Shown piece after piece: positions 3,316 to 39,459 of a stretch of DNA of 39,459 nt; the first letter of the stretch is position 1; every line of letters starts with the position of its first letter. The DNA is from Acidobacteriaceae bacterium (GTDB lineage Bacteria; Acidobacteriota; Terriglobia; Terriglobales; Acidobacteriaceae), in assembly GCA_003165795.1 (NCBI GenBank), contig PMWW01000199.1, positions 1 to 39,459 of the forward strand, in the 5' to 3' direction. The position numbers and the translations under genes were made by a program. Below the pieces are notes generated by a model. The model had not been told where the DNA came from. It made no database searches and worked only from the letters and a program-made list of their open reading frames with translations.

Positions 3316-3424
3316 TCCGGCAATCTTTGCGGAACGTTCTGCCCCATTCGTCTATCACCTCTTCAAGTGACCCCAATCACTGCTCTGGTGACCATTCTGA
3401 GCGAAGGTCAAAGAGGAGAGCTAG

Positions 3425-4510
3425 ATGCTCCTCCCAGCCTTCCTGGATGGCCGCCGTTGGACCGCACGCTGCGGTAGGCAGCGTGTTTCGTCGTGGCGCA
3501 CCCTGTTTCCATTCTTACTTGTTCCGTTGCTGTTGTCTGCCGAACCCAACCCTGCGAATTCAACGTTCCATGGCAATGGCGGATTCGGCGGCGGAATCCT
3601 GCTCGGCCTGGTGCTGGCGATGCTGGTGGGCGGGTTCGCGCGGACCCGATTCAAAACCGCAGAGCGCGCATCGGCGACCTGGAAGGAACTGGCCGATCAT
3701 CGCGAGTACGAACGCAACCTGGCCCAACAGGAGTTAGTGGGCAGGCTGGAGGAAGAGCGCGAGCTGGCCAAGGAGAAAATGCAGTTCGAGTCGCAGCTCA
3801 CGGAGTATGAAAAGTATGCCTCACTGGCCCAACTTGCTCTGGGCGCGGCGCACGAGATCAACAATCCACTACTGGGCATCCTGTCGCATCTCGAACTCGA
3901 GTGGAGAGAGGCCACCGACGAACGTCGCGACGAAATCGAACAGTGCATCGAGGGCGCCAAGCGTATTTCCGCGGCGGTGCGAGGCTTGCTCGACTATGCG
4001 CGACCCGGACCGTTGACGCTTAGCAAAGTCAACCTGCAGCGGCTTACCAGCGAGACGCTGAAGTTCCTGGAGCATCAGCCCATGTTCCGGCAAATCGAAT
4101 TGCAGAACTGCGTCCCCCACGACCTGCCCAACCTGAGCGCCGATGCCAACCAGTTATCGCAGATCCTGATGAACCTGCTTCTCAATGCCGCCCAGGCGAC
4201 CTCGCCAGGTGGAAGCATCACCATCCTGGCTGACAAAGTGAAGTTCGCCGAAGTCATCGAGCTGCGCGTACGTGACACGGGTTGCGGAATTCCAGCTGAC
4301 ATCCTGCCTCACGTCTTCGAGCCATTCTTTACTACCAAGCGCGGCAAGGGAACTGGCCTGGGGTTGAGCATAACCCAAAGTTATGTGCGCAGCCACGGTG
4401 GCGACATTTATGTGGAAAGCATACCGGGCGCAGGCACCACGGTGCGGGTCACTCTGCCGGTTCGCCAGGTGGGCAAAGTTGTGCGGCCCAGCGAGGAAGT
4501 CATCGCTTAG
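3425..4510 (+). CDS. Membrane-bound sensor histidine kinase (NtrB class)
   Basis: A 361-residue sensor kinase. Hydrophobic segments at about residues 24-38 and 55-71 suggest membrane anchoring with only a small external loop. A Lys/Glu-rich coiled coil (about 84-130) leads to the dimerisation domain with the phospho-acceptor in AAHEINNPL (His 143). The ATPase domain has an N box (QILMNLLLNAAQA), a G1 box (DTGCGIP), FEPFFTTK and a GTGLGLS G2 box, so it should be active. GAGGAG precedes the ATG. The gene ends two bases before the NtrC-type regulator, so the two form one operon and almost certainly a cognate pair. The signal is unknown. With so little outside the membrane, sensing may be in or near the membrane. 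Confidence 0.93.
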   Translation: MLLPAFLDGRRWTARCGRQRVSSWRTLFPFLLVPLLLSAEPNPANSTFHGNGGFGGGILLGLVLAMLVGGFARTRFKTAERASATWKELADHREYERNLAQQELVGRLEEERELAKEKMQFESQLTEYEKYASLAQLALGAAHEINNPLLGILSHLELEWREATDERRDEIEQCIEGAKRISAAVRGLLDYARPGPLTLSKVNLQRLTSETLKFLEHQPMFRQIELQNCVPHDLPNLSADANQLSQILMNLLLNAAQATSPGGSITILADKVKFAEVIELRVRDTGCGIPADILPHVFEPFFTTKRGKGTGLGLSITQSYVRSHGGDIYVESIPGAGTTVRVTLPVRQVGKVVRPSEEVIA

Positions 4511-4512
4511 CC

Positions 4513-5898
4513 ATGGCCCACTCCATACTGATTGTCGATGACGAAGCTCTTACGCTGCTCACCATTGGGCGCGCCTTGGAGACCGAGGGCTACGAAGTAC
4601 TGCTCGCCTCCAGCGGAGAGGAAGCACTGCAGACCATCGCCGAACAGAAGCCCGACCTCGCGCTGCTCGATGTAGTTTTGCCGGGCATTAACGGAATCGA
4701 AGTCTTGCGCCAGGCGAAAAAGTTTTCACCCGCGACGATCGTGGTAATGATGAGCGCCTACCACTTGGTAGACCGCGCCGTCGAAGCCATGAAGCTGGGC
4801 GCCTACGACTATCTCATCAAGCCTTTCCGCATTGCGGACATGGTCAACGCCATCCAGCGTGCCACCGAGATGCTGGCGTTGCGGGTGCGGGTTCACGATA
4901 CGGTGGAAAGCGCCAAGGGTCGCTACGATTTTGGGCGGGTCGTCACCCAAAGTCGGACCATGCGCGAAGTGCTGGAGATGGCGCGCCGGGCCGCCGACAG
5001 CGATCACACCACGATCTTGATTCAGGGCGAGAGCGGAACCGGTAAAGAGGTGCTGGCAAAAGCCATTCATTACAACAGTTCGCGGGCCCAGGCGCCGCTG
5101 ATTGCGCTCAACTGCGCGGCCTTGCCCGACACGCTGCTGGAGAGCGAACTTTTCGGCTTCGAGCCAGGAGCGTTTACCGACGCCCGCCGGCGCAAAGAAG
5201 GACTGATCGAGAAAGCCTCGGGCGGTACTCTTTTCCTCGACGAGATTGGCAATACGTCGTTCAGCCTGCAAGCCAAGCTGCTGCGCGTTTTGGAGGAGGG
5301 GATATTTCTCCGCTTAGGTGGAACCAAGCCCATTCAGGTGAACGTGCGCATCATCACCGCGACCAACAAAGTCCTGAAGGAAGCCGTCACTAAAGGCGAG
5401 TTTCGCGAGGACCTTTACTACCGTCTGAATGTGCTGCCGCTGTTTATTCCGCCCTTGCGCGAGCGTCGCGAAGACATCTTGCCCCTGGCGCTCGATATCA
5501 TGCAATTCTTCAACAAGGAACTGAAGAAGAGCTTCGTCGGATTTACCCCGTCCGCCGCCGAATTGCTGCAACGGTATCCCTGGCCGGGAAACATCCGCGA
5601 ACTGCGAAACGTGATCGAGCGCACCATGATCCTCTCGAAGGAGACGGAGATCGACGAAGAAGCTCTGCCCGAGGAAGTCCGCGACTACCACGACGAGCCG
5701 GCGCACGAGGAGATACTTTCGTCCTTCGAACTCTCGCCGACCGGCAATCAATTCGTAAGCTTGCGGGAACTGGAAGACCGCTACATCCACGAAGTGTTGA
5801 ACGCTACCGGCCAGAACAAAACTCATGCCGCCCGCATCCTGGGCATACATCCTACTTCGCTCTTGCGCCGTCTGAAGAAAACGCTCGAGCTGGTTTAG
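4513..5898 (+). CDS. NtrC-family sigma-54-dependent response regulator
   Basis: A 461-residue activator with receiver, AAA+ and Fis-type HTH domains. The receiver has acidic residues at 10-11, phospho-acceptor Asp 53 and the conserved Lys 103 in LIKPF. The AAA+ domain has Walker A GESGTGKE (172-179), Walker B GGTLFLDEIG and the sigma-54 contact loop GAFTDA (219-224), a variant of GAFTGA that keeps the critical Phe-Thr. The C-terminus THAARILGIHPTSLLRRLKK is the DNA-binding helix-turn-helix. Known: such proteins bind enhancer-like sites and drive RNA polymerase-sigma-54. Inference: its likely target is the GcvH-like/HybA/HybB operon that starts 300 bases downstream, whose upstream region carries repeated palindromic motifs. 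Confidence 0.95.
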   Translation: MAHSILIVDDEALTLLTIGRALETEGYEVLLASSGEEALQTIAEQKPDLALLDVVLPGINGIEVLRQAKKFSPATIVVMMSAYHLVDRAVEAMKLGAYDYLIKPFRIADMVNAIQRATEMLALRVRVHDTVESAKGRYDFGRVVTQSRTMREVLEMARRAADSDHTTILIQGESGTGKEVLAKAIHYNSSRAQAPLIALNCAALPDTLLESELFGFEPGAFTDARRRKEGLIEKASGGTLFLDEIGNTSFSLQAKLLRVLEEGIFLRLGGTKPIQVNVRIITATNKVLKEAVTKGEFREDLYYRLNVLPLFIPPLRERREDILPLALDIMQFFNKELKKSFVGFTPSAAELLQRYPWPGNIRELRNVIERTMILSKETEIDEEALPEEVRDYHDEPAHEEILSSFELSPTGNQFVSLRELEDRYIHEVLNATGQNKTHAARILGIHPTSLLRRLKKTLELV

Positions 5899-26186: not shown

Positions 26187-28553
26187 TCAGCGGTCCTGAT
26201 TGGCCTGCAGGGATGAAGCGTGCGCCCTGGCACGGCTGGCGTCTGCCGTGCGTCCTAGCCGCTGGTACAAGTTGGCCAGCTGCCGCCACGGCTGGGGATT
26301 GTCGGGCCTCAAATTTGCCGCTTGTTCCTGATAAGTAGTCGCCTTATCAAGCTCGCCAAGCCCAGCCCAGGCGCTCGCTCGCCCTTGCGCCATCTTGAAC
26401 TCGAATTGTCCGTTATCGGAGGGCTTCATGTTCCAGAAAGCGCTTCGGTCTGCCTTATCGAAGGCCGCCAGCGCGCTTTCTGGCTGTCCGACATCGAGGT
26501 AAAGGTCCCCCACCTTGAGCAACGACAACCAAGGCGTCATGGAGTAGCGGGCGGCGTGTTCCTCGGCGTCAATCGCCGCGGTGATCCGTCCTCGTTTAGC
26601 GTACGACTGCGCCAGTGAGTCCCAGGTGCTGTCATTGGGGTTGAGGGCGATCGCGACTAGATATTCCTGCTCCGACGCATCGAGGTGGCCGTCGGCAAAC
26701 AGCAGGTTGGCGCGCGACCAGTGCAGGAACGGGCTATCGGGGAAGATGGCAAGGCCTTTTTCGGTTGCGGCCAGCGCCTCGGCATTGCGTCCCAATGCAC
26801 CCAGAACCGAGGCAGCATTCGCCCAGGCATTGAACGCCTCTGCGCGATTGCTTCCCGGCGGTCGCACAGGCAAGGGCGCGGTGGCACAGTTCAGCGGAAA
26901 ACGCTGAATCAGCGCTTCCGTCTCCGGAGTGTGGCGCACGAATACTGCGGACACCTCGTCCAGGTAAACCAAGTTCCACAATTTACTGTTGCAAAAATCC
27001 GGGAGACGGATGAACTGAGTGCCTTGATAGCGCGCAATCGGCAGGATTACGGTGTTGATGTTGTAACGGCTTACTTCCTCTTGCCAGATCGCCGACTCCG
27101 GCGGGCTCTGCCGCAACTGGATTTCCCGCTCAATGCGTTCCAATCCGAACGGTATGCCGCGGCCATCGATATAATCGCGCCGCTGCGGACCGAGTCGCCA
27201 GCTCAGATAGCCGCCCAGGGTATAAGGGTTGAACACTTCTCCGGGAAGCTGCTCGCGTTCGATGAATTCAGCCGCTCGTTGCGGAAACCACCAGCCCAAG
27301 CCGGCGCCGAAGGTGCTTTCTTCCTGGGTGCGCAGGTAATAACGATTGGTGACCAAATCGAAGCAGCGCACCAAAGCGAGCACTACCAGTAGCCCAGCCA
27401 AAGTAGTCGCGAGAATCGAACGGGTTCTGGCCCGCCCGATCCAGGAGGCAATACCCGGCACCACTTCGGCGATAACGTATCCGCCAACCACTACGACCAC
27501 GCAGGAAAATACGCCGTCCATGCGGACGTAGCGTACCGCCGGAATCGTTGCTCCCAGCAGCAAAAGGCCTGCTCCTGGACGGTCGCGCAGCAACGCGATT
27601 CCGCCTGCGACCACGGCGAGCACCAGCAGCACATAAATCATGCCTCCGGGATCGCGCAGTGGAAGCGAATGGACGAGGTTCCAACTGAGAGGCAGGCTTT
27701 GCCACTCCCGGAACCAAGCCTGGTGGTAAGGCACGACGCGTTCTTGCCGCACCAGTGCCCGGTAAACGTCCCAACCCCAGGGATTCACCAGCGTCGCCAG
27801 CGCCGTACCCAGCAACCATGGGAATGCTCGACGAAGCCGTTCCAAGGCTGCGCGACGGCGCTCGGCGCCGAACAGCGATTCCAGCAGTTCCGTAACTACA
27901 TACATCCCGACGAGGGCCAGCCCCGCCGAGAAACCTAAATGAAGATTGACCCACGCCACCATGAGCAGTGGTAGCAACCACAGGCGGGCGTGGCCAGTTT
28001 CATAGTTCTCCCACAGCAGAGAAAGAAATGCGGCAAAGAGTACAACCGTGAACATGTCAGCCCGGGGAGCGGTGCGCCAGGCAATCAGCGGGACTGCGAC
28101 GATGGCAATGGCGGCGCTGACTGCCGAGCCTCGACGAAGCAGCAACGCCACCGAGCCACAGCACGCTGCGGCCCCAATCCAGGAAATAAGGGCAAATCCG
28201 CCAAGCAAATAAGCGGCGTAAAAAATCACGCCTGCGCCCAGCGGATAAATCCAATTGCCCTGCGCAATATAGGAGAAAGCTTCGACCGGCGGAGCGTGAT
28301 GATGCTGCAGCACCCAACGTCCGGTGGCCATTTGCCAGCCGAGATCGTAGTCCTTAATGGTTCGCAGGCCGGCCAGAAATGCGTAGATGAGCGCGGTGGC
28401 GGCAAGCACGTAAAACAGTCGCCGTTGTAGGGAAGAACGCTGAAGGCTTTCCGGCTGCGATGTGGTCGCGCCCGACAACCCGTCTACCGAATCGGCTGGC
28501 ACAACAAAGGACAAGGTCGAGGGTCGTAGGAAACGGCCGAGCGCGGAAGGCAT
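26187..28553 (-). CDS. Large polytopic membrane protein with TPR repeats
   Basis: A 788-residue protein with many hydrophobic segments in its first 420 residues (about ten to eleven), a middle extracytoplasmic domain with FNPYTLGGYLSWRLGPQRRDYIDGRG, and tetratricopeptide-like repeats from about residue 600 (AEALAATEKGLAIFPDSPFLHW and following) to the C-terminus. The layout suggests a GT-C-like or unassigned envelope protein of a type common in acidobacteria. No catalytic motif is asserted. It is convergent with the thioredoxin-like gene and alone on the minus strand. Confidence 0.85.
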   Translation of the reverse strand: MPSALGRFLRPSTLSFVVPADSVDGLSGATTSQPESLQRSSLQRRLFYVLAATALIYAFLAGLRTIKDYDLGWQMATGRWVLQHHHAPPVEAFSYIAQGNWIYPLGAGVIFYAAYLLGGFALISWIGAAACCGSVALLLRRGSAVSAAIAIVAVPLIAWRTAPRADMFTVVLFAAFLSLLWENYETGHARLWLLPLLMVAWVNLHLGFSAGLALVGMYVVTELLESLFGAERRRAALERLRRAFPWLLGTALATLVNPWGWDVYRALVRQERVVPYHQAWFREWQSLPLSWNLVHSLPLRDPGGMIYVLLVLAVVAGGIALLRDRPGAGLLLLGATIPAVRYVRMDGVFSCVVVVVGGYVIAEVVPGIASWIGRARTRSILATTLAGLLVVLALVRCFDLVTNRYYLRTQEESTFGAGLGWWFPQRAAEFIEREQLPGEVFNPYTLGGYLSWRLGPQRRDYIDGRGIPFGLERIEREIQLRQSPPESAIWQEEVSRYNINTVILPIARYQGTQFIRLPDFCNSKLWNLVYLDEVSAVFVRHTPETEALIQRFPLNCATAPLPVRPPGSNRAEAFNAWANAASVLGALGRNAEALAATEKGLAIFPDSPFLHWSRANLLFADGHLDASEQEYLVAIALNPNDSTWDSLAQSYAKRGRITAAIDAEEHAARYSMTPWLSLLKVGDLYLDVGQPESALAAFDKADRSAFWNMKPSDNGQFEFKMAQGRASAWAGLGELDKATTYQEQAANLRPDNPQPWRQLANLYQRLGRTADASRARAHASSLQANQDR

Positions 28554-28703
28554 GCAGAAAATATACTAGAACCTATGACATAAATCGTTTTGTATCAGGG
28601 CTCGGCAGGCTTGGCCTAATGTCCCGTCAGATTGACGAATCGCTTTCATTACGTAACCCTGATCCGCCTGCTTCAAGTCCAAAGCCAAACTCCACGCCCG
28701 CTC

Positions 28704-29009
28704 GACGGCTATGTGCCCGATTCGAATTTGGCGAGCCAATTGAACGGCAAGCGGCAGGCCGAAGACAGTGATCGTAGGCCGGTGCTGCATGCCGGGTTGC
28801 AGCGTATGCGGCAGACGCTGCGCACGGCGGAGGGCCGGCAGCGATATCAACGACGCAAAGAGTTGGTGGAACCGATGATCGGCAGCTTGAAGGAACACGG
28901 CGGCATGCGTGACTTCCAACGGCGTGGTCTCGCCAACGCGGCGGTGGAGTTCGTGCTGGCGGCCATCGCCTTGAACCTGAAACGTTGCTACCGGGTGCGG
29001 CAGCTCTGA
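28704..29009 (+). pseudogene. C-terminal fragment of an IS1182-like transposase
   Basis: This is the tail of a DDE transposase: DGYVPDSNLASQLNGK, then GLQRMRQTLRT, GRQRYQRRKELVEPMIGSLK (with the third catalytic Glu in VEP), and GMRDFQRRGLANAAVEFVLA, ending ALNLKRCYR. This order fits IS1182/IS5-type enzymes. The N-terminal two-thirds with the two Asp are missing, so it is inactive. No clear terminal inverted repeats or target duplication were found. The 28554-29307 gap otherwise holds repeats but no gene. Confidence 0.75.
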
Positions 29010-29147
29010 GCCCGCCGTGTAGTGAATCGGCCATCGAGTGACCTAGGGCCACCAAGGGCCAGTGTCGCAACCGTAACCCAATTTTCAAGTGGAACAAAAT
29101 CGCGCGAAAGCAGCTCCATCAGCCGCAACGCGGCGGAATGCTGTTAG

Positions 29148-29301
29148 CCGGGCCATAAGGCCCCGGTAACGCGGGAATTAGTCCGAGCCGCAGAGCGGCG
29201 ACACGGGTTGCGACCCAGTCTCTGAAGGCCGTGCCCCTTCAACGTACCGACTTAGTCAGAGCTTGCTTAGCTGAAGGCTGAAGGCTGATAGCTGACGGCT
29301 G
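29148..29301. repeat. Cluster of short hairpins and a 7-bp tandem repeat
   Basis: GGGCC-ATAA-GGCCC (29150-29163), TGAAGG-N7-CCTTCA (29223-29241), and four tandem 7-bp units of the form CTGANRG (29271-29298) sit between the transposase remnant and the end of pyrH. Similar tetraloop hairpins recur in the ribosomal cluster at 36134-36194 and at 37437, which suggests a dispersed repeat family. Confidence 0.6.
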
Positions 29302-29307
29302 TCCCGC

Positions 29308-30027
29308 TTATCCCTCGTTGACCAGCGAGCCTATGCGCTCGCCCATGACCACCCGCTGAATATTGCCACGCCGGTTCAGATTGAAGATCACGATGGGCAG
29401 GTTGTTCTCGCGGCAAAGCGCGATCGCCGTCGCATCCATCACTCGCAGCCCCAGCCGCAGCACATCCATGTAACTGATGGTCTCGAACATGGTCGCCTCT
29501 TTCACCAGCACCGGATCGGCGGTGTAAATGCCGTCGACCTTGGTGGCTTTGAGGATGGCGTCAGCCTTGATCTCCATGGCGCGCAGCGAAGCGGCCGTGT
29601 CGGTGGAGAAATACGGATTGCCGGTACCGCCGGCAAACACCACCACCCGGCCTTTCTCCAAATGGCGGATGGCGCGGCGGCGGATGAACGGCTCGGCCAC
29701 CTGGTTCATCTCGATGGCGCTCATCACCCGGGTGAAAACGTTTTGCTTCTCCAGTGCATCCTGCAGCGCTAGCGCGTTAATCACCGTGGCCAACATGCCC
29801 ATGTGATCGGCGGAGACGCGGTCCATCAGCTTGGCTTGCTCGGCGACGCCGCGGAAGAAGTTGCCGCCGCCGACTACGATTGCGATCTCGATTCCCAGGC
29901 GATGTACCTCGCCAATTTCGGCGGCGATCTCGTGCACACGTTGGTTGTCGACGCCAAACCCTTGTCCTGCGGCCAGTGCCTCGCCGGAAATTTTTAGCAG
30001 GATGCGTTTGTAAACCGGAGTGCTCAT
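29308..30027 (-). CDS. pyrH: Uridylate kinase
   Basis: A 239-residue enzyme that phosphorylates UMP to UDP. Motifs: [11 protein letters not shown] near residue 7, [13 protein letters not shown] near 50, DHMGMLAT near 73, [18 protein letters not shown] near 133, and [12 protein letters not shown] near 164. All are standard for bacterial UMP kinases. The ATG at 30027 is preferred. The longer frame to 30198 adds a leader unlike the family and runs under recQ. In most bacteria pyrH follows tsf directly, but here recQ and the RT-protease gene, both on the plus strand, separate them. frr, the usual next gene, is absent downstream. Confidence 0.96.
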
Positions 30028-30187
30028 GCTTGGCAGATACCTAACTGGGGATTGCCCATTCAGTTTAGCAGGCTCTTCGTCAAGAATAGGCAGATTGCAG
30101 CAGTGGAGAGTCTTCAGGATAAGCCCTTTGTAGATTGCCGGACTTTCATCCCAGCCGACTACGATACAGTAGATTCGAGACCCAATC

Positions 30188-31732
30188 ATGGACAGCATCG
30201 ACGATCTCCTGCAACGGGTCTTCCAGCTTGCGCAGTTTCGTCCTCATCAGCGGGAGATTATCCAGGATGTCGTCGCAGGCAACGATGTCGTATGCGTAAT
30301 GCCGACGGGCGCGGGCAAGAGCCTGTGCTTCCAACTTCCAGCGTTGATGCTGCAAGGCCTTACCGTCGTAGTCTCTCCTTTAATCTCGCTGATGGCAGAT
30401 CAGGTGAAACAACTGCAGCGGCTGAATGTTCCCGTTCTATTCATGAATAGCTCGCAGAGCCAGGAGGAGCAGCGCGAAGTTTTTTCCGAACTGAAACAAG
30501 GTTTTTCGGGACTGCTCTACGTGGCGCCCGAGCGATTCCCGACACCATCGTTCCAGCGCATACTCCCAGAGCTGAAGACACGACTTTTTGTCGTGGACGA
30601 AGCCCATTGTTTGAGTTTTTGGGGACATGATTTCCGTCCGGAATATATGCGCCTGGCCGAGGTGCGCGAGCGACTGGGATCGCCGGTCACCATGGCGTTG
30701 ACTGCGACGGCCACCCCGCAAGTCCGTGACGACATAGTAAGAATGCTCAAGCTGCGCAGTCCCAAGCTACATGTGACTGGCTTCGATCGTCCCAACCTCA
30801 CCTACGCCTGCCGCCGCATGGATACGGAGGCCCAAAAGGATGCGGCGCTGCTGAACGGTCTTTCCCGGCAATTGGGCAGCGGCATCGTCTACTGTTCGAC
30901 TCGCCGGATGGTCGAACAACTGGCGGCACTGTTCGCAGAGCGCTTTCCTACTCGCACGGTGCGCGCGTATCACGCCGGCATGAACGCTGACGCTCGCAAG
31001 CAGAGCCAGGAAGACTTCATGGCGAACGCCGGCGCGGTGGTGGTGGCGACCAATGCGTTTGGCATGGGGATCAATAAGACTGACATACGCTTTGTGGTGC
31101 ATTACAACATTCCCGCCAGCCTGGAGGCGTACTACCAGGAGGCTGGCCGCGCAGGTCGTGACGGTCGCTCTGCGCAGTGCATTTTGTACTGCAGTCCGCG
31201 TGATCGCTTTACCCAGGAGTACTTCATCGACAAAATTGGCGAGAACAACTCCGTGCTTTCGCCCGAGCAAATTACAACTCTGCAAGCCTATGCCCGGCAG
31301 AAGCTGGATCAGGTATTTCAGTATGCCTATCGATCGCGCTGCCGTCGCCGCGCGATTCTCGACTATTTTGGCGACAGCACTCCGGTTGCGCAATGCGCCT
31401 GTGATGTTTGCCGCGGAGACGTTCGCTCTCCCCCGGCCGGGGTCACTGTGGCGACACGGCGTGTTGCCAAGCCGAAGCCTAAGCGGACCCTTTCAGATGA
31501 CGACCATCTTGATCCGGCCGCCGAGCTACGATTCGAGCGCTTGCGGAAAGTGCGAGCAGAATTGGCGGCGGAAAATAAGTGGCCAGCTTTCTGTATCGCG
31601 CATGATTCGGTCTTGCGCGAAGTGGCACGGGTCGCGCCGAAATCGCTGGATGCGCTGTCGGAAATAAGCGGAATAGGCGCGAAGAAGCTGAAGAAGTTTG
31701 GAAACGCTCTTCTCAAGGCAGTCCGGGATTAG
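30188..31732 (+). CDS. recQ: RecQ-type ATP-dependent DNA helicase without winged helix
   Basis: A 514-residue 3'-5' helicase. Motif 0 ([10 protein letters not shown]) precedes Walker A MPTGAGKS (38-45), then [17 protein letters not shown] (137-153, where most RecQ have SQWGHDF), [49 protein letters not shown], and [11 protein letters not shown] zinc knuckle with C-R...CACDVC follows near residue 380-420. After a short Lys/Pro-rich linker comes an HRDC domain ([31 protein letters not shown]). The winged-helix RQC domain of longer RecQ proteins appears to be missing. It is 240 bases upstream of the RT-protease gene, same strand. Confidence 0.93.
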
Positions 31733-31972
31733 TGTGGCGCGTTGCTCTGCCGTCCGGGCTCCTTCGAGCTTCAGGAACTATGTTGTAAACACATCGCGAG
31801 GGTGTATTGGCAAACAATGACGTGCGCATTATCACAAGTGGATTGACTTGCCATATATGATGTAGTCGGCTGCATTGGCTTGCGCCGATTGGCACTGGTT
31901 GTTTATCGTGCAACCGTATTGACAATGTGTGCAGAAACGACCGCGCGCGACTCATAAGGTTGGCGTCTGGTC
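31733..31972 (+). ncRNA. Candidate retron msr-msd RNA region
   Basis: The 240-base leader between recQ and the RT-protease has no reading frame and is unlike the flanking GC-rich coding sequence. It holds stacked stem-loops: AATG-CATT with a CG extension (31816-31830), CAAGT-N6-ACTTG (31835-31850), TCGGC...GCA-N6-TGC...GCCGA (31866-31888, eight pairs with one bulge), and GGTTG-N9-CAACC (31897-31915). Known: retron RTs are preceded by an msr-msd RNA. A long a1/a2 repeat was not found (best six pairs: ACACAT at 31790-31795 with ATGTGT at 31925-31930), so the exact RNA ends are unknown. Confidence 0.4.
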
Positions 31973-33631
31973 ATGTCGCAAAGCGAGAATCGGTCAGGCC
32001 AAGCAGCCACCCTAGGAATGTGCTCGACAACTCATCCACCGCCCCGCACAAACGGCGACCTAGCGCGTTTGCTTGACGTATCTGAACGATATCTCAAATT
32101 GGTTCTGCGTTCGGGTCTCCGGTATTCGGTTTTTCGGATTACCAAGAAATCCGGAGGAACCCGCGAAATAGCAGCGCCAAGCGATCCAATTAAGCAATTG
32201 CAGCATAGATTGCTTCATTATCTCGAAACAGTGTATACCGGTCGAAGCTCTGCCCATGGGTTCATTAAGCAGCGATCGATCAGAACAAATGCTGAACCGC
32301 ATTCCCGGACTCGCTATGTATTTAATCTCGACCTAGAGAACTTCTTCCCATCCATTCACTTTGGACGGGTGAGAGGTCTACTGATGGGGAAACCTTACTT
32401 CTGGGGTAAGAAGGCGGCAACATCCGCGGCCAATCTTTGCTGCAGGGATACCGTCTTGCCGCAGGGTGCCCCAACGTCCCCTATCATCGCCAATATGGTA
32501 TGCGCAAAGTTGGACAGCGAGCTGAAGACCCTCGCAAAGAAGTTTCACGCTACATACACACGCTATGCTGACGACATAACTTTCTCGACGATGTCGCAGA
32601 GTTTTCCGAAAGTTCTTGCTGTACACGCAGGAGAATTGACTCGGCAGGTTGAGGTTGGCGACGAACTGAGAAAGATAATCGAGTCGAATGGTTTTAGTGT
32701 GAACACGAAGAAGACCCGTCTAGCCCGCCATGAGCGTCAGGAGGTAACGGGCCTAACCACTAATCGGTTCCCGAATGTTCAGCGCCGATTTGTTCGTCAG
32801 ATTAGGGCAATGATACATGCGTGGCGAAGGCATGGACTCGACAAGGCTCAGAGTGAGTACTGGACCAAGTTCGACCACCGCAATCGCCAAGGAAAGCGTC
32901 CATCCTTTGCCCGTGTAGTTAGGGGAAAGATTGAGTTTGTCGGCAGCGTGCGTGGGAAGACTGATCCGATTTATTGGCGACTGCTTCGGCAATATGCCGA
33001 TCTCTACGTCCGGGATGTGGACCGTAATTATCAGCTTCGTGAGCCAGACGGGTTCGTGGAGTACGATTTTCGAGAACTCAAAAAGGCCATATGGGTGCTG
33101 TTCGACAAGACCACCCTTCAGCAGAGCACAGCGTTTTGCCTGAAGAATGTTGGCCTAGTAACATGCGACCACGCGATCGGAGATCCCGGGAGTCTGGTCG
33201 TATTCCAGTCGCGAGACCCATTGATGACCGAATATCCCGTGCGCTTGTTGAGCCGAGATCAAAAACTAGACCTTGCGATCCTCGAAGCCCCATTCCAAGT
33301 TCCGAAGTGGTTGTTGGCCGGCGACGATGACGCCATCAAGCAACGCGACCTTGTACGCCTCCTAGGCTTCCCGCAGCATCACAATGGTGCGGACGTTTCC
33401 ATCTCCGAGGGATACGTCGTGCATGAATATAAATTCGAAAACGTTCGCCGTTTTCACATTAGTGCCTCAATCATTCATGGCAACAGTGGGGGACCTGTGC
33501 TTAATTCGGAGAACCGGGTCATTGGTGTTGCCATAAAGGGTGGCCAAGACGAGCTTAACGGAGTCGTCCCAATTAGTTACGCTTCCCGACTATCCCTATC
33601 AACTGCCCCAACACCTAGCGACCAAGCATAA
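31973..33631 (+). CDS. Retron-type reverse transcriptase fused to trypsin-like protease
   Basis: A 552-residue fusion. RT domain (about 25-350): NAEPH (106-110, the retron NAxxH motif), FNLDLENFFPSI with catalytic Asp 120, LPQGAPTSP (162-170), YADD (198-201), SVNTKKTRL (242-250), and VTG (258-260, the retron VTG motif). Protease domain (about 365-540): His 400 in VTCDHAI, Asp 433 in KLDLAIL, and Ser 505 in GNSGGP, a complete triad of trypsin type. No signal peptide or membrane helix, so it is cytoplasmic. The composition is more A/T-rich than the flanks, suggesting transfer. AAGG lies about 12 bases before ATG 31973, a weak site. Inference: the RT makes an msDNA that gates the protease, a defence-like toxin. 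Other protease-fused RTs exist, and I do not assign a retron type. Confidence 0.9.
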   Translation: MSQSENRSGQAATLGMCSTTHPPPRTNGDLARLLDVSERYLKLVLRSGLRYSVFRITKKSGGTREIAAPSDPIKQLQHRLLHYLETVYTGRSSAHGFIKQRSIRTNAEPHSRTRYVFNLDLENFFPSIHFGRVRGLLMGKPYFWGKKAATSAANLCCRDTVLPQGAPTSPIIANMVCAKLDSELKTLAKKFHATYTRYADDITFSTMSQSFPKVLAVHAGELTRQVEVGDELRKIIESNGFSVNTKKTRLARHERQEVTGLTTNRFPNVQRRFVRQIRAMIHAWRRHGLDKAQSEYWTKFDHRNRQGKRPSFARVVRGKIEFVGSVRGKTDPIYWRLLRQYADLYVRDVDRNYQLREPDGFVEYDFRELKKAIWVLFDKTTLQQSTAFCLKNVGLVTCDHAIGDPGSLVVFQSRDPLMTEYPVRLLSRDQKLDLAILEAPFQVPKWLLAGDDDAIKQRDLVRLLGFPQHHNGADVSISEGYVVHEYKFENVRRFHISASIIHGNSGGPVLNSENRVIGVAIKGGQDELNGVVPISYASRLSLSTAPTPSDQA

Positions 33632-33656
33632 CAGGGCGGGAATGATCCCCGCCCTG
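33632..33656. terminator. Bidirectional hairpin between RT-protease gene and tsf
   Basis: CAGGGCGGG (33632-33640) pairs perfectly with CCCGCCCTG (33648-33656) across a seven-base loop, directly after the RT-protease stop and 26 bases from the tsf stop. T-rich bases follow on the plus side (CCTTTAAC). It would stop the two convergent transcripts. Confidence 0.7.
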
Positions 33657-33682
33657 CCTTTAACTGGTGACTTGGAGCTCAT

Positions 33683-34339
33683 TTACTCCCCGGCCGTATC
33701 GCCAACCTTGCTGACCGCGATGGTCTCGCCTATGTCGCCAACCTTGAAGCGGGCGAAGCGGCGGATGGAAATGTTTTCACCCAGCTTGCCGATGGTGGTG
33801 GCGATCAGTTGCGCGACAGTGATGGTCTGCTCTTTGATGAAGGGCTGCTCGTACAGACACACCTCCTCGTAGAACTTGGCCATCTTGCCTTCGACGATCT
33901 TCTCGATCACCGGAGCCGGCTTGCCGGTCGCGCCCGCCTGCGCGCGATAGATGTCCTTCTCCTTTTCGAAAGCTTCGGGAGTGACATCTTCCTTGCGGAC
34001 GAAGCGCGGATCGGTAGCTGCGATGTGCATCGCGATATCGTGTACCAGGCCCTTGAAGTCGTCGGTGCGGGCGACGAAATCGCTCTCGCAATTCACCTCA
34101 ACCAGCACGCCGATCTTGCCTCCGGCGTGGATGTAGCTGGCCACCGAGCCTTCGCTGGTGGCGCGGGTGGCCTTCTTGGCGGCCGTGGCAATGCCCTTCT
34201 TGCGCAGGATGACGATGGCACCTTCAACGTCGCCCTTACTTTCGGTAAGGGCGTTCTTGCAATCCATCATGGGTGCATTGGTTTTGTCGCGAAGCTCTTT
34301 AACTTGTGCGGCGGAAATGTTCACGGATGTAGTGCTCAT
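33683..34339 (-). CDS. tsf: Translation elongation factor Ts
   Basis: A 218-residue nucleotide exchange factor for EF-Tu. The N-terminal UBA-like domain has [29 protein letters not shown], then the two dimer-like EF-Tu-binding subdomains with [15 protein letters not shown], a short form lacking part of the longer E. coli domain. ATG at 34339 gives the conserved start, with GAAAG close upstream. A longer frame to 34432 adds unlike residues. It belongs to the rpsB-tsf unit, but a strong terminator and a large inverted repeat lie between them. Confidence 0.96.
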
Positions 34340-34358
34340 CTTTCGGGAAAACCCTTTC

Positions 34359-34488
34359 GCTATTCGCATTTCGCTCTTCGTTGTTCGCCAGAGAACGAAA
34401 CACGGCCGTATAAAATCTATGTCCCTATTCATCTTTCACCGCCTCGCTCAACCTTCTGGCGAAGAGCGAACGGCGATAAGCGAATAGC
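34359..34488. repeat. Large imperfect inverted repeat between rpsB and tsf
   Basis: Two 34-base arms, 34359-34392 and 34455-34488, are inverted relative to each other. Both outer nine-base blocks (TCTGGCGAA and GCGAATAGC, reading the right arm) match perfectly and the middle portions differ. The 62-base centre is A/T-rich. This may be a small mobile or interspersed element or a structured RNA. It lies in the leader of tsf. Confidence 0.7.
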
Positions 34489-34494
34489 GGCTGT

Positions 34495-34525
34495 AAAAAC
34501 GCCCGCGCTGCATTGACGCGCGGGC
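34495..34525 (-). terminator. Intrinsic terminator after rpsB
   Basis: On the minus strand GCCCGCGC pairs with GCGCGGGC (eight pairs, 34501-34508 and 34518-34525) around a nine-base loop and is followed by G then five T (34495-34499). This is a standard Rho-independent terminator between rpsB and tsf, so tsf may have its own promoter or be made by read-through. Confidence 0.85.
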
Positions 34526-34556
34526 CAGGAAACTACTCGTTGTCTCGACCGATTGC

Positions 34557-35435
34557 TTAGGCGTTGGTGCTCTCTGCGGCAGCGCGCCGGCCGCCCTTGC
34601 CCAGCACTTCTTCCATGCTGACTTCTTCGGAATCGTCGATGCTCGACACGGGAGCGGCGGCGGTTTCCTCGCCTTCGGGACTGGCCGCGGCTGCTTCGGC
34701 AGCCTCGCTGTACTGCACGCCGGCCGAGAGGTCGGCCATCTGCTTGTCGGTAGCGGCCTGCGAGCCCTCGACCACCGAGTCGGCAATCTTGGAGGCGAAC
34801 AACCGAATGGCGCGCAGCGCGTCGTCGTTACCGGGAATCACGTAATCCACTTCAGTTGGATCGCAGTTGGTATCGACCACGGCGACCACCGGAATGCCCA
34901 GCTTGCGCGCTTCCTTTACCGCGATCTGCTCCTTGTTGGAGTCGATCACGAACAGCGTGTCCGGCAAGCGGTTCAGGTTCTTGATGCCCGCCAGGTTGGC
35001 TTGCAAGTGCTTGCGCTCGCGCTCCAACTTCACAACTTCTTTTTTCGGCAGCAGCTCGTAGCGGCCATCGGTGGCCATCTCGTCCAGTTCCTTCAGCCGC
35101 TTCACCGATTTCTGCACCGTCACCCAGTTGGTCAGCAGCCCGCCCAGCCAGCGCTGGTTCACGTAGAACATGCCGCAGCGGGTCGCTTCTTCCGCGATCG
35201 CATCCTGCGCCTGGCGTTTAGTGCCGACAAACAGCACTAGCTTGCCTTCGGACGCCATGTCCTGCACGAACTTCGACGCTTCCTTGAACATCTTCAGCGT
35301 CTTCTGCAGATCGATGATGTAAATGCCATTGCGTTCGCCAAAGATGAATTCCTTCATCTTCGGGTTCCAGCGTTTCGTCTGATGCCCGAAGTGAACGCCC
35401 GCTTCGAGCAACTCCTTCATCGTAATATTTGCCAA
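34557..35435 (-). CDS. rpsB: 30S ribosomal protein S2
   Basis: S2 binds near the head of the small ribosomal subunit. The 292 residues have the family core: [81 protein letters not shown], and [12 protein letters not shown]. It extends about 60 residues past the core with an Ala/Glu/Ser-rich acidic tail. The start is TTG at 35435 since AGGAGG lies five bases upstream. A later ATG at the MKELLEAG position is possible. Confidence 0.97.
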
Positions 35436-35598
35436 GCTACCTCCTAGGTTGGCTTGCATCCTTTGCGGCGGCTTTGGTCAGCCGGTCGCTCGGGATTGCT
35501 TTCCCCGTCACCCGCTCTGTTGAGGATGCGGGAAGATTTCGTTCCGGTTGATGTTGTGTGCCTCGCCCCCGGAACCAAAAGGCGAGAATAGGGGGTCA

Positions 35599-35651
35599 GG
35601 GACTAGGTTCTAGGGGTTAGCGATTGAGCCTAGCCCCTAAAACCTAGTCCC
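35599..35651 (-). repeat. Near-perfect 53-base hairpin between rpsI and rpsB
   Basis: 18-base arms (GGGACTAGGTTCTAGGGG and its complement) pair with a single mismatch, and an inner CTAG adds more pairs. The hairpin lies 12 bases after the rpsI stop and 164 bases before the rpsB start, on the shared transcript. It could be an interspersed palindromic repeat or an attenuator/processing site that separates the two messages. No T run follows. Confidence 0.75.
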
Positions 35652-35662
35652 TAGTCCCTTCT

Positions 35663-36058
35663 TTATCTCTTCGAGAACTGGAAGCGCTTACGAGCGCCCT
35701 TCTGACCGTACTTCTTGCGCTCTTTCTCGCGAGCATCGCGGCGCAGGAAGCCTTCAGCTTTCAGCTTGGGGCGCAGCTCAGGATTAAACTCCTGCAACGC
35801 GCGCGCAATTCCCATACGCACCGCACCGGCTTGGCCGTTCACGCCACCGCCCTTGACGGTGCAGGTGATGTTGAAGGTGCCGCTGGTCTCGGTCAGCACT
35901 AGGGACGACTTCGCCATGATGCGCTGCGCCTCGGTGACAAAGTGCTCGTCAAAGGCTTTGCCGTTGACCTTGAACTCGCCGCTGCCCGGGCGAAGGAACA
36001 CGCGAGCCACGCTCGATTTGCGCCGACCCGTACCGTAATACTGAACCAATTCTGCCAT
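35663..36058 (-). CDS. rpsI: 30S ribosomal protein S9
   Basis: A 131-residue ribosomal protein whose C-terminal tail reaches the P-site tRNA. It has [20 protein letters not shown] at the start, [27 protein letters not shown] in the middle, and the invariant C-terminus ending RFQFSKR. ATG at 36058. It is cotranscribed with rplM upstream, a universally conserved pair. Confidence 0.98.
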
Positions 36059-36133
36059 CGTTATCCGTCGGGAGCCTGGCTCCCTTTGATCCTTCCCAGA
36101 AAATTTGATGGGTCCTTAATCAGGACCTGAAGG

Positions 36134-36194
36134 GGCGTGCCTTCAGGCACGCCGAATCCGCTTCTCAAATAACTCCAGCGGGCTTCAGCCCGCT
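36134..36194. repeat. Two perfect tetraloop hairpins between rplM and rpsI
   Basis: GGCGTGCC-TTCA-GGCACGCC (36134-36153, eight pairs) and AGCGGGC-TTCA-GCCCGCT (36177-36194, seven pairs) share the same TTCA loop. They lie in the 139-base space between rplM and rpsI. Both look like units of a dispersed repeat family that also occurs near 29150 and 37437. Inference: mRNA processing or stability elements. Confidence 0.75.
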
Positions 36195-36197
36195 TGC

Positions 36198-36632
36198 CTA
36201 CTTGGCAACTGCGGCCAGCGCTTCCGGCTTCTGCGCCGAGTGAGGATGCTTGTCGTCGCGATAGACCTTCAGCTTGCCGGCCATGGCGCGCCCCAGCTTG
36301 GTGTGGGGCAGCATTCCGGTGATGGCCTCTTCCACAATCCGCTCCGGCTTGCGAACCAGCCGCTTCTTGTACTCCTCGGACTTCATGCCACCGGGGTATC
36401 CGGAGTAGTTGTAATAAACCTTGTTGTCGGCCTTGAGTCCCGAAATGTGGATCTTGGCCGCATTGATCACAATGACGTGATCGCCGGTGTCCATGAACGG
36501 AGTGTACTTGGGGCTGTCTTTGCCAGAGAGGATGCGCGCCACACGACTAGCCAACCGGCCCAGAATCTGGCCGTCGGCATCAATGACAAACCACTTGCGC
36601 GCAATTTCCCCCTTGGGGAAATAGGTTGACAT
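36198..36632 (-). CDS. rplM: 50S ribosomal protein L13
   Basis: A 144-residue ribosomal protein. It contains [17 protein letters not shown] near residue 13, [23 protein letters not shown] near residue 35, and the [12 protein letters not shown] signature near residue 108. The start ATG at 36632 has GAGAG upstream. It heads the minus-strand transcript with rpsI, rpsB and tsf. Confidence 0.98.
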
Positions 36633-36877
36633 CTCTAAACTCTCCCAGTATTTGAAAAAACCGCGAAAGAGCCGCTTGGTTCAGGCGCTGGACGCGCAGA
36701 GACCTTCAGGCGGGCAAACGCAGGACTACGAAAGATTTAAGAATAAACCACGGGCGCTGCGCTTGTCAATAAAACGGCGGCACAGGCCCTCGCGGGTAGG
36801 ATTCGTCGTTGCCGTCTACCTCCGATGGCTTTCACCCTCCATCGTCGGCTTACCGCTCAGCGCCGCGTCCCGCGCGC

Positions 36878-37399
36878 CTAGCCACCATATCTCCTGGCGA
36901 TGAAAACTCCGAAGACGATGTGGAGCAGGCCGAAGCCGACCCCCAGCACGACGTTCGCCCAAAACCAGGGCAAAGGCAGTGCGACCGCGCCCATCACAAC
37001 GAAAGCCGCTCCCATGGCGGGTACGGCGCGAACCGAGAATGCTCCCGCCTGCATCACTGCGACTCCGTAGAGCACCAGCCACACGCCGGGAATCAGCCGC
37101 AACGGCCCACTCCACATCAAGGCGATGGTCAGCAAACCGCCGGCAGCTAGCGCCGGCAGCAATCCGACGAACAGCCGTCGTCCCGAGATCGACAGCATCT
37201 TATTCCGCAGCCGGATCGTCTTCCGATGCATGGTGGCCAGCGCGATCGTCACCGCGACCAATGCTTCGGCGAGCCAGACCGCCAGCCATCCATCGGGCGT
37301 GACCTGCCTCAGTGCGATGGGAGCGGCAATGAGTGCCGTCACTCCCATGGCGCACAATCCCCAGCCGGGCACGGCGGTAAATGCTGAACTGCGTTCCAT
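36878..37399 (-). CDS. Polytopic membrane protein, unknown
   Basis: A 173-residue protein with about five hydrophobic segments (LCAMGVTALIAAPIAL, LAVWLAEALVAVTIALA, LLPALAAGGLLTIALM, VWLVLYGVAVMQAGAF, VVMGAVALPLPWFWANVVLGVGFGLLHIVFGVFIA) and no catalytic motif I recognise. Between the second and third segments lies a basic stretch, HRKTIRLRNKML. It lies between clpB and rplM on the minus strand with space on both sides, so it is likely a single gene. Confidence 0.75.
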   Translation of the reverse strand: MERSSAFTAVPGWGLCAMGVTALIAAPIALRQVTPDGWLAVWLAEALVAVTIALATMHRKTIRLRNKMLSISGRRLFVGLLPALAAGGLLTIALMWSGPLRLIPGVWLVLYGVAVMQAGAFSVRAVPAMGAAFVVMGAVALPLPWFWANVVLGVGFGLLHIVFGVFIARRYGG

Positions 37400-37436
37400 G
37401 GTCTGGCGGATTATACCCAGATTGTCGACCGTTCGA

Positions 37437-37456
37437 AGCCAGCCTAAAGGCTGGCT
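37437..37456. repeat. Perfect eight-pair hairpin after clpB
   Basis: AGCCAGCC-TAAA-GGCTGGCT lies 30 bases beyond the clpB stop. It has the same design as the hairpins at 36134 and 36177 (7-8 pairs and a four-base loop). It may act as a terminator-like 3' end for clpB, but no T run follows. Confidence 0.7.
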
Positions 37457-37485
37457 CTACCGCGCCTTTTCGAATCGGAGTCCGT

Positions 37486-39459
37486 TTACTTCACCGCCGC
37501 CGCTTTCGCCGGTTCGCCCACCCGCTTGGCCACCTTGAAGGTCAGCTTGGGTTGCTTTTTGTCGGCATCGACCACGATGTGATCGCCGTGCAGCACTTCG
37601 CCATCGAGAATCTTCATCGCCAGCGGATCCTGTACCAGCTTTTGAATGGCGCGCTTCAGCGGACGCGCTCCATAATTCGGATCGTAGCCTTCAGTGAAGA
37701 TCATCTCCTTCGCCGCCGCCGTCAGCTCCAGGCTGATCTTGCGAGCGGCCAGCAGCTTCCGCAAATCTTCCAGCCGCAGGTCAACGATCTTCGTCAACTG
37801 CTCCTTGCCCAGCGGGTTGAAGATGATGATGTCATCCACGCGGTTGAGGAACTCGGGCTTGAAGTGCGCGCGCAGCGCTTCCATCACCCTCTGATGCGCT
37901 TCCGTAATCTGCTCGGCGTCGTGATGTAATCCCATGTCTTGCAGATACGCCGATCCGATGTTCGACGTCATGATCAGGATCGTGTTCTTGAAGTCGACCA
38001 CGCGGCCCTTGCCGTCGGTCAGGCGGCCATCGTCCATGATCTGCAGGAAGATGTTGAATACATCCGGATGCGCTTTCTCGATTTCGTCGAATAGCACCAC
38101 GGCGTACGGCCGGCGGCGAATCGCTTCGGTCAACTGCCCGCCTTCGTCGTAGCCCACATATCCCGGAGGCGCGCCGATCAGCCGCGACACCGAATGCTTC
38201 TCCATGTACTCCGACATGTCGATGCGCACCATAGCATGCTCATCGTCGAACAAGAACTCGGCCAGCGCTCGCGCCAACTCGGTCTTGCCCACGCCGGTCG
38301 GTCCCAAGAAGATGAACGAGCCAATCGGCTTGCGCGGATCGCTCAATCCCGCGCGTGAACGCCGTATCGCATTGGCGACATGTTGCAACGCGTCGTCCTG
38401 CCCAATCACGCGCTCCCGCAAGCGTTCTTCCATGGTGACCAGCTTCTTCACTTCGCCTTCCAGCATCTTCGACACCGGAATGCCGGTCCACTTGCTGACG
38501 ATCTTGGCGACGTCTTCCTCGTCGACCTCTTCCTTCAACATGCGCGACTGCTTGCCGTCCATGGCTGCGCTCAGCTTCGCCACCTCGGCCTCAAGCTGCG
38601 GCAGCTCGCCATACTTGATCTGCGCCGCGCGATTGTAGTCACCCTTGCGTGTCGCTTCCTGCTCTTCCAGCTTCAGCCGCTCGATGCGCTCCTTCGCCTC
38701 GCGCACTTTGGCGATAGCTTCCTTCTCCTGCTTCCAGCGCGCTTTCAGGGCATTGGCATCTTCCTTGATATGCGCCAGCTCTTTTTCCGCGATCGTCAGC
38801 CGCTCGCGCGAGTTGGCATCGTCTTCACGCTTCAACGCCTGCCGCTCGATCTCAAGCTGCGTGGCGCGCCGTTCGAGCTGGTCGATCTCGGTCGGCATGG
38901 AATCGATCTGGATGCGCAGTGACGCCGCGGCCTCGTCGATCAAGTCGATTGCCTTGTCCGGCAGGAAGCGGTCGGAGATATAGCGATGCGACAGGGTCGC
39001 GGCCGCCACAATCGCTGAATCCTTGATGCGCACGCCGTGATGCACTTCATACTTCTCGCGCAGGCCGCGCAGAATCGCGATGGTGTCTTCCACGTTGGGC
39101 TCGCCCACAAATACGATCTGGAAGCGGCGCTCCAGCGCTGCATCTTTCTCGATGTACTTACGGTATTCGTTCAGCGTGGTGGCGCCAATCGCGCGCAACT
39201 CACCGCGGGCCAGTGCCGGCTTCAGCATGTTCGAAGCATCAATCGCGCCTTCAGCCGCGCCGGCTCCCACCAGCGTGTGCAGCTCGTCGATGAACAGAAT
39301 GATCTGTCCCTGCGACTGCTCAATTTCTTTCAACACCGCTTTCAGGCGGTCTTCAAATTCGCCACGATACTTCGCGCCCGCCAGCATCGCGCCCAGATCG
39401 AGCGACACCACGCGCTTGTTCTTCAACTGCTCGGGAACGTCGCCGGAAATGATGCGCTG
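37486..39459 (-). CDS. clpB: ATP-dependent chaperone ClpB, 5' end beyond window
   Basis: A protein disaggregase that works with DnaK. The visible 657 or so residues run from within the first AAA+ domain to the end: [14 protein letters not shown] and the sensor region with [12 protein letters not shown], then a helical middle domain rich in Glu/Lys/Arg (about residues 190-310 of the visible part), and the second AAA+ domain with [38 protein letters not shown] and [10 protein letters not shown]. The middle domain distinguishes ClpB from ClpA and ClpC. The N-terminus and first Walker A lie beyond 39459. No sign of decay is seen. Confidence 0.97.

Follow-up and report, generated by a model that had tools for sequence, protein, structure and literature searches.

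A seemingly complete type XI retron with a trypsin-like protease and a probable msr-msd RNA in an Acidobacteriaceae bacterium

Gene organization of the locus

The stretch of 39,459 nucleotides analysed here, called the window, carries on its forward strand an uninterrupted open reading frame of 552 amino acids (31973-33631), which begins with ATG, ends with a TAA codon at 33629-33631 and encodes a reverse transcriptase (RT) followed by a trypsin-like protease. Its neighbours, which were named from their translations and from synteny, are pyrH, recQ, tsf, rpsB and rpsI. The ATG at 31973 falls within a candidate non-coding RNA (ncRNA) that extends to 32008, and the ATG at 32018 is in frame and corresponds to Met16 of the 552-residue reading. 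Because the candidate RNA spans the first ATG and the second lies just past the a2 repeat of this RNA, the gene probably comprises 32018-33631 and encodes 537 residues, not 552 from 31973. An in-frame ATG is located 0-24 nt past the best a2 in 20 of the 32 type XI relatives collected. Residues are numbered below in the 552-residue reading, so the catalytic triad of the protease, His400, Asp433 and Ser505, becomes His385/Asp418/Ser490 in the shorter protein. The terminator-like repeat behind the gene sits outside the probable insertion described below, and a comparable GGGCGGG...CCCGCCC repeat is found between recQ and tsf in a related stretch that has no retron (L108).

Table 1. Coordinates of the features of the retron locus in the window
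Feature	Position	Strand	Basis or remark
a1 repeat of ncRNA (5' arm), probable	31868..31890	+	pairs with 31988-32008
Branching guanosine, predicted (G of GATT at the a1 end)	31887..31887	+	position only
msr hairpin SL1, stem TGGTTG/CAACCG, 9-nt loop	31896..31916	+	covariance model R1
Expected msd stretch (template of the DNA part), borders approximate	31917..31987	+	between SL1 and a2
a2 repeat of ncRNA (3' arm), probable	31988..32008	+	inverted repeat with a1
RT-protease gene, likelier start	32018..33631	+	537 aa; ATG 9 nt past a2
RT domain (RVT_1)	32138..32758	+	Pfam; AlphaFold model versus retron Eco2
Trypsin-like peptidase domain (Trypsin_2), HtrA-like fold without PDZ	33128..33529	+	Pfam, alignment, AlphaFold model
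His400 codon	33170-33172	+	protease triad
Asp433 codon	33269-33271	+	protease triad
Ser505 codon	33485-33487	+	protease triad
Terminator-like inverted repeat between retron gene and tsf	33632..33656	.	read in sequence

Reverse transcriptase domain and retron type

The motifs and the triad quoted in an earlier sequence-only reading are all found at the residues given there when the frame is translated: NAEPH (106-110) and VTG (258-260), which we take to be the retron-specific NAxxH and VTG motifs, NLDLENFF (118-125), LPQGAPTSP (162-170), YADD (198-201), and the three triad residues, of which Ser505 lies in GNSGGP. The two halves that it had described were searched against Pfam, and both exceed the cut-offs within one protein: RVT_1 matches residues 56-262 (2.5e-20, 73.5 bits, cut-off 29.6) and Trypsin_2 matches residues 386-519 (1e-20, 75.4 bits, cut-off 27.6). 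Among the aligned RT-proteases, window counted, N106, H110, D120, A199, D200, D201 and T259 are present in 33 of 33, and A107, V258 and G260 in 32 of 33.

Two RT-Protease_XI models of PADLOC match residues 26-538 with 557.6 and 555.3 bits, the better of them (PDLC02960) over model positions 8-501 of 506. The next type, RT-TIR_XII, matches residues 26-346 only (399.1 bits), and RT-Toprim_I-C reaches 369.7 bits; both are confined to the RT half. Since the match to the RT-Protease_XI models runs over nearly the whole length and that to the other types over the RT half only, the locus is, by its profile matches, of type XI retron architecture. The NCBIfam retron models, which describe other retron types, all stay under their cut-offs (341.5 of 600, 312.7 of 450 and 201.8 of 235 bits). 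The name of type XI reportedly comes from Mestre et al. 2020. The locus had been put forward as a candidate for a new system, a claim that is rejected here: PADLOC already holds the architecture as RT-Protease_XI, and protease-fused retron RTs are mentioned in section 5 of the available text of PMC12405507.

A sequence search of the PDB places retron Eco2/Ec67 nearest to the RT (2.3e-52). In the AlphaFold model, which was built from 32 aligned sequences (27 RT-proteases among them), the RT part (residues 1-348) superposes on Eco2 (9lm3_A) with Z 32.1, rmsd 2.8, 335 aligned residues and 34% identity. The model has a mean pLDDT of 90.8 and a pTM of 0.68, each domain being confident and their mutual arrangement not. 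By profile scores, PDB sequences and structure alike, the RT stands nearer to those of retrons than to any of the other classes compared, as the sequence-only reading had proposed, and Ec67/Eco2 are the nearest. That the RT is of the group II intron or DGR-like kind and carries a protease by chance is hardly credible: a group II maturase model does match, but weakly, with 51.7 bits against a cut-off of 300, while retron models reach 557.6 bits and the structures nearest to the RT part are retrons.

Protease domain

The triad, claimed to be intact from the sequence, is complete and is kept across the aligned relatives. His400 and Asp433 occur in 33 of 33 aligned RT-proteases and Ser505 in 31 of 33, window counted; the two exceptions, L061, which runs off its contig, and L010, which overlaps an IS3 element, are without that part of the protein. 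The whole triad is found in 30 of the 32 collected relatives. In the AlphaFold model, the C-terminal part resembles the HtrA/Deg proteases, with Deg2 (4fln_B) at Z 24.1, rmsd 2.4, 176 aligned residues and 23% identity, and DegQ at Z 23.5. The window's protein shares the predicted protease fold and the triad with these enzymes, but it is fused to an RT and ends shortly past the protease, and there is no PDZ domain among its Pfam matches at E≤1.

In a PADLOC search with the protease domain, the best models after type XI are HamA (35.2 bits) and LmuA (28.5 bits), so the domain is detectably akin to both. Ordinary HtrA proteases match it likewise, and a descent from defence trypsins is for this reason not established. 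In a tree of protease domains the window groups with L017 (support 87/85). The nuclease-protease pairs of Hachiman, AVAST and Lamassu resemble the window's protein in that a defence trypsin-like domain is fused to another defence protein, according to the available text of PMC12799240. Unlike in those systems, the protease is C-terminal in the window, and the [TS]HxHxDH motif, which serves as a proxy for an MBL nuclease, is absent from 1199 ORFs (≥80 codons) of the 33 type XI loci, whose flanks extend at most about 4 kb.

Candidate msr-msd RNA

The a1 and a2 arms form the best inverted repeat of 31733-32075, with a score of 39.0 that 2 of 300 dinucleotide shuffles reach; the stricter scoring and the reach to 32075 were chosen after the candidate had been seen by eye, so this is not a blind test. 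A general repeat search has part of the later candidate among its four pairs, and a first, too permissive scoring gave a different best pair, which was equalled by 13 of 60 shuffles. The stretch 31868-32008 folds with -62.5 kcal/mol (z -4.12), as low as in none of 200 shuffles. Because a2 lies beyond it, the stretch 31733-31975 on its own shows no such excess of folding, with z +0.91 and 166 of 200 shuffles equally good. The G at 31887 is the predicted branch point because it is placed like rG15 of Eco2, as described in the available text of PMC12405507, and like the G after a1 in the Ec67-family locus L118. The expected msd stretch finishes with GCGAGAAT at a2, and several relatives carry AGAAT or a similar run at the msd end, as seen by eye.

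A conserved stretch bearing a1 and a2 lies directly 5' of the RT start in several relatives. The upstream repeat exceeds the best of 20 shuffles in 24 of the 32 type XI relatives and does not in the other eight (L007, L038, L042, L049, L052, L056, L060 and L063). In a Bacteroidota clade only 3 of 28 rows (L076, L077 and L091) have a repeat above shuffles, so this clade may have another RNA arrangement.

A hairpin after a1, often with a loop of 9 nt, is common to many relatives. From 42 relatives with the repeat, 34 were aligned (L045, L022, L048, L057, L061, L063, L084 and L008 were left out) and 29 were kept after removal of near-copies and rows with an unclear hairpin (L031, L032, L055, L090 and L009); these are 15 type XI loci and 14 other members of the clade. 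In these 29 rows, which do not include the window and were chosen partly for pairing, so that the pairing counts lean upward, 90.2% of the cells pair against 71.7 ± 2.0 in shuffles, and 34 cells carry double changes against 8.5 ± 2.9. The covariation of the hairpin is 0.618 against 0.238 ± 0.036 in shuffles, and it is destroyed by sliding one partner.

A covariance model (R1), built from these 29 relatives without letters of the window but after the window's hairpin had been seen, has in both strands of the window a sole match at E≤10, at 31888-31940 (13.6 bits; E 0.38 for the whole window and 0.0033 for the 343 bases of 31733-32075). As a control, R1 was applied to three Ec67-family loci, which are AT-rich. 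It found the msr in one of them, where the top match (14.2 bits) lies on the msr just past a1; other matches in these control loci reach up to 12.3 bits. In the control locus L121, in which the RT and TIR genes are split, its best match is at 818-869 with 11.5 bits. No retron family is among the four Rfam matches in 28500-37500 at E up to 5. This silence is uninformative, because six loci searched at 0.5 give no Rfam match, and three of them belong to the Ec67 family.

These observations indicate that an msr-msd RNA is probably present at 31868-32008, upstream of the RT: the tests are moderate one by one, yet repeat, hairpin and start codon coincide. In the alternative that the RT is a scaffold or the maker of another product, the RNA candidate would be a chance arrangement, for which the computational nature of the RNA evidence and the moderate single tests leave some room. 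It is improbable, since the RT catalytic and retron residues are kept in 32-33 of 33 proteins and the hairpin covaries in relatives, in addition to the coincidence of the three elements.

Genomic site

The RT gene has a GC3 of 54.9, against 65.4-79.3 in the five neighbours measured. The relative with the closest tsf (95% identical; recQ 80%) has its recQ and tsf matches 151 nt apart, and the RT-protease was not found in its genome, which is 74% complete. Within a set of 21 near relatives, the RT-protease is confined to its own genome (E≤1e-30). Of 200 genomes of the order it occurs in one, again its own, and of 396 genomes of the phylum in 2, its own and one more (both at E≤1e-60). Because of this sporadic occurrence, the deviating GC3 and the empty site in the relative with the closest tsf, the retron looks like a horizontally acquired insertion between recQ and tsf.

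The ten syntenic stretches contain no match to the RT-protease. The recQ gene lies between tsf and pyrH in two of them (L108 and L112), and tsf adjoins pyrH in three (L113, L115 and L116). RecQ was considered as a partner of the retron, a link that had been hinted at from the sequence, and was rejected: recQ is at the same place in two retron-less stretches and so follows the site rather than the retron, and no RecQ is found in the other 32 type XI loci, whose flanks are at most about 4 kb and often less. A conserved neighbour as substrate of the protease was rejected as well, as the RT-protease itself is the only protein cluster common to all 33 type XI loci. Ten smaller clusters cover 3 to 7 loci each; for nine, the example is an ORF that lies across the RT-protease gene in a different frame, and the remaining one (L008, L037 and L049; 1578-3407 in L049) lies upstream of the RT-protease.

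In L112, from the relative G553, the gap between tsf and recQ (2405-3000) contains a gene for a ParE-type toxin and, upstream, a small ORF with no match in Pfam. In the window this interval is occupied by the retron, so defence or toxin-antitoxin genes may have a small hot spot between recQ and tsf. Not far from pyrH, the window also contains a short transposase fragment (DDE_Tnp_1_6; 28632-29009, forward strand), which points to earlier activity of mobile elements close to the retron site. A long near-perfect hairpin is found between rpsB and rpsI (35587-35663). It has no second copy in the genome, where it matches only itself and its own other arm, and is thus not a dispersed repeat; Rfam microRNA matches at this position are under their gathering scores. 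The host genome (G000) has four more RVT_1 matches, on contigs C159, C186, C84 and C30.

Relatives and RT tree

At least 33 RT-proteases are known from this analysis, the window included: 26 from genome contigs, 5 from plasmids, 1 from a further genome and the window itself. They come from a profile scan of genome contigs, of which the best 80 of 578 matches were used, and from plasmid, phage and phylum searches. A first scan of the genome contigs gave no relatives, and viral contigs contained no RT-protease relative. Among the matches listed, the named RT-proteases of genome contigs belong to Pseudomonadota, Bacillota, Acidobacteriota and Gemmatimonadota.

The window shares with other type XI members a single gene for a retron RT with a C-terminal trypsin-like protease and its triad, and an upstream RNA with a1 and a2, which is present in most of the relatives collected. 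Compared with the 32 type XI relatives collected, its RT is 36-46% and its protease 17-38% identical. It differs from them in that its closest RT among the matches listed, with 52% identity, is a cyanobacterial retron RT without a protease (L009).

In an RT tree of 61 rows, the rows with a protease need 9 changes, at least 3 of which are forced by well supported branches. L014, L015, L058 and L074, which are partial or split, and L011, which is the same record as L027, are not in the trees, and 27 more rows (Bacteroidota or near-copies) were left out of this one. A single protease clade is rejected by the AU test (p 0.00134; 30 protease rows against 31 others), although one label is doubtful: L050, counted as having no protease, has a tblastn match over 29-527 and an ORF that stops after 322 aa, so it may be a broken RT-protease. 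For the protease rows from Acidobacteriota and Gemmatimonadota, five in all, a single clade is not rejected (p 0.359). The branches of the tree are long, and the window's own place has no firm support. The check on retron placement that the sequence-only reading had proposed is answered in part, by profiles and structures. Because a single protease clade is rejected, the protease-fused retrons do not appear to form one RT lineage, and type XI is better taken to denote an architecture, not a clade. Descent from one RT lineage is a criterion set here and is not known to belong to the published definition of the type.

The sister RT proteins have other domains in Pfam: TIR (L045 and L059), AlbA_2 (L023), Mrr (L033 and L036) and AAA_5 (L013). 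For L031, the match to a Toprim fusion model spans the full length (462 bits), though a TIR fusion model scores slightly higher (478.7). At E up to 1e-60, PADLOC gives for L013, L009, L012, L023, L033 and L036 only RT matches to other types. In L013 the fusion of the retron RT to AAA_5 occupies 2905-5166, and in L009 (4064-6930) and L012 (4007-6979) a retron RT is followed by a hypothetical gene and then by an ATPase gene. The actinobacterial retron RT of L035 (3893-5461) has a C-terminal part of ~190 aa without a Pfam match at E up to 0.01, which by eye looks like a PD-(D/E)xK nuclease. That the protease-fused RTs are not one lineage suggests that effectors have been exchanged on a common RT-ncRNA sensor.

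Proposed mechanism

The nearest retron types resemble the window in their RT. Eco2/Ec67 (RT-Toprim, PADLOC type I-C) shares the RT fold, a fused C-terminal effector and an RNA directly upstream, with the order a1-GATT-hairpin also present in the Ec67-family locus L118. Its effector is a Toprim domain, which is an RNase when isolated from Eco2 (available text of PMC12405507), while that of the window is a protease. The retron-TIR proteins (PADLOC type XII) share the RT domain and the single-gene plan, and their effector is TIR instead of a protease. According to the same part of PMC12405507, Eco2 forms a trimer of RT-Toprim and msDNA that is described as self-inhibitory, and phages that escape Eco2 are mutated in the nuclease gene denB, the trigger role of which could not be assayed directly. 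Titles and abstract openings among the matches listed point to no characterisation of a type XI retron or of its ncRNA, which does not imply absence from print, and the literature matches listed contain no characterised retron that acts by proteolysis.

The reading considered probable is that of a horizontally acquired type XI retron, composed of the ncRNA at 31868-32008 and the fused gene, whose protease is inhibited by msDNA and freed by phage. By analogy with Eco2, the msDNA would most likely silence the HtrA-like protease as long as no phage factor disturbs the msDNA. The RT would copy the msd from the branching G and stay bound to the msDNA, and the RT-msDNA particles would form an inhibited oligomer as in Eco2, in which the fused protease domains are held inactive or away from each other. 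This oligomer would break up when the msDNA is cut or bound by a phage product; the freed protease would become active and cleave at least one host protein, and the cell under infection would halt before phage release.

The main rival is activation by assembly rather than release: the locus would be a real type XI retron, but the msDNA or the RT-msDNA oligomer would switch the protease on, and phage DNA or proteins would complete an oligomer of mutually activating HtrA-like domains. The HtrA fold of the protease and its best matches to HamA and LmuA after type XI agree with such a switch, as does the trypsin of Hachiman: in the available text of PMC12799240, the HamA-fused protease cuts an MBL pro-nuclease and requires oligomerisation to be turned on, and the like is cited for AVAST and Lamassu. 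Eco2, the nearest solved retron, is however described as self-inhibitory with msDNA bound (PMC12405507, as available), and activation by assembly is considered unlikely.

Release of an msDNA-inhibited protease can tentatively be set in a wider frame. One RT-ncRNA chassis, shared with the Toprim-like, TIR, AlbA_2, Mrr-like and AAA versions, may have acquired an HtrA-like protease, or swapped one in, on more than one occasion. Its sensor would turn msDNA damage into proteolysis, and the released protease would kill or arrest the cell by cutting host proteins directly, without the pro-nuclease on which other defence trypsins act.

Significance

To judge from its sequence, the locus in the window is a seemingly complete member of a known retron type. 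Its probable ncRNA, the corrected start codon, the triad positions and the relatives from several phyla make it a testable unit. If effector exchange is true, domain swaps would directly test how retrons gate their effectors.
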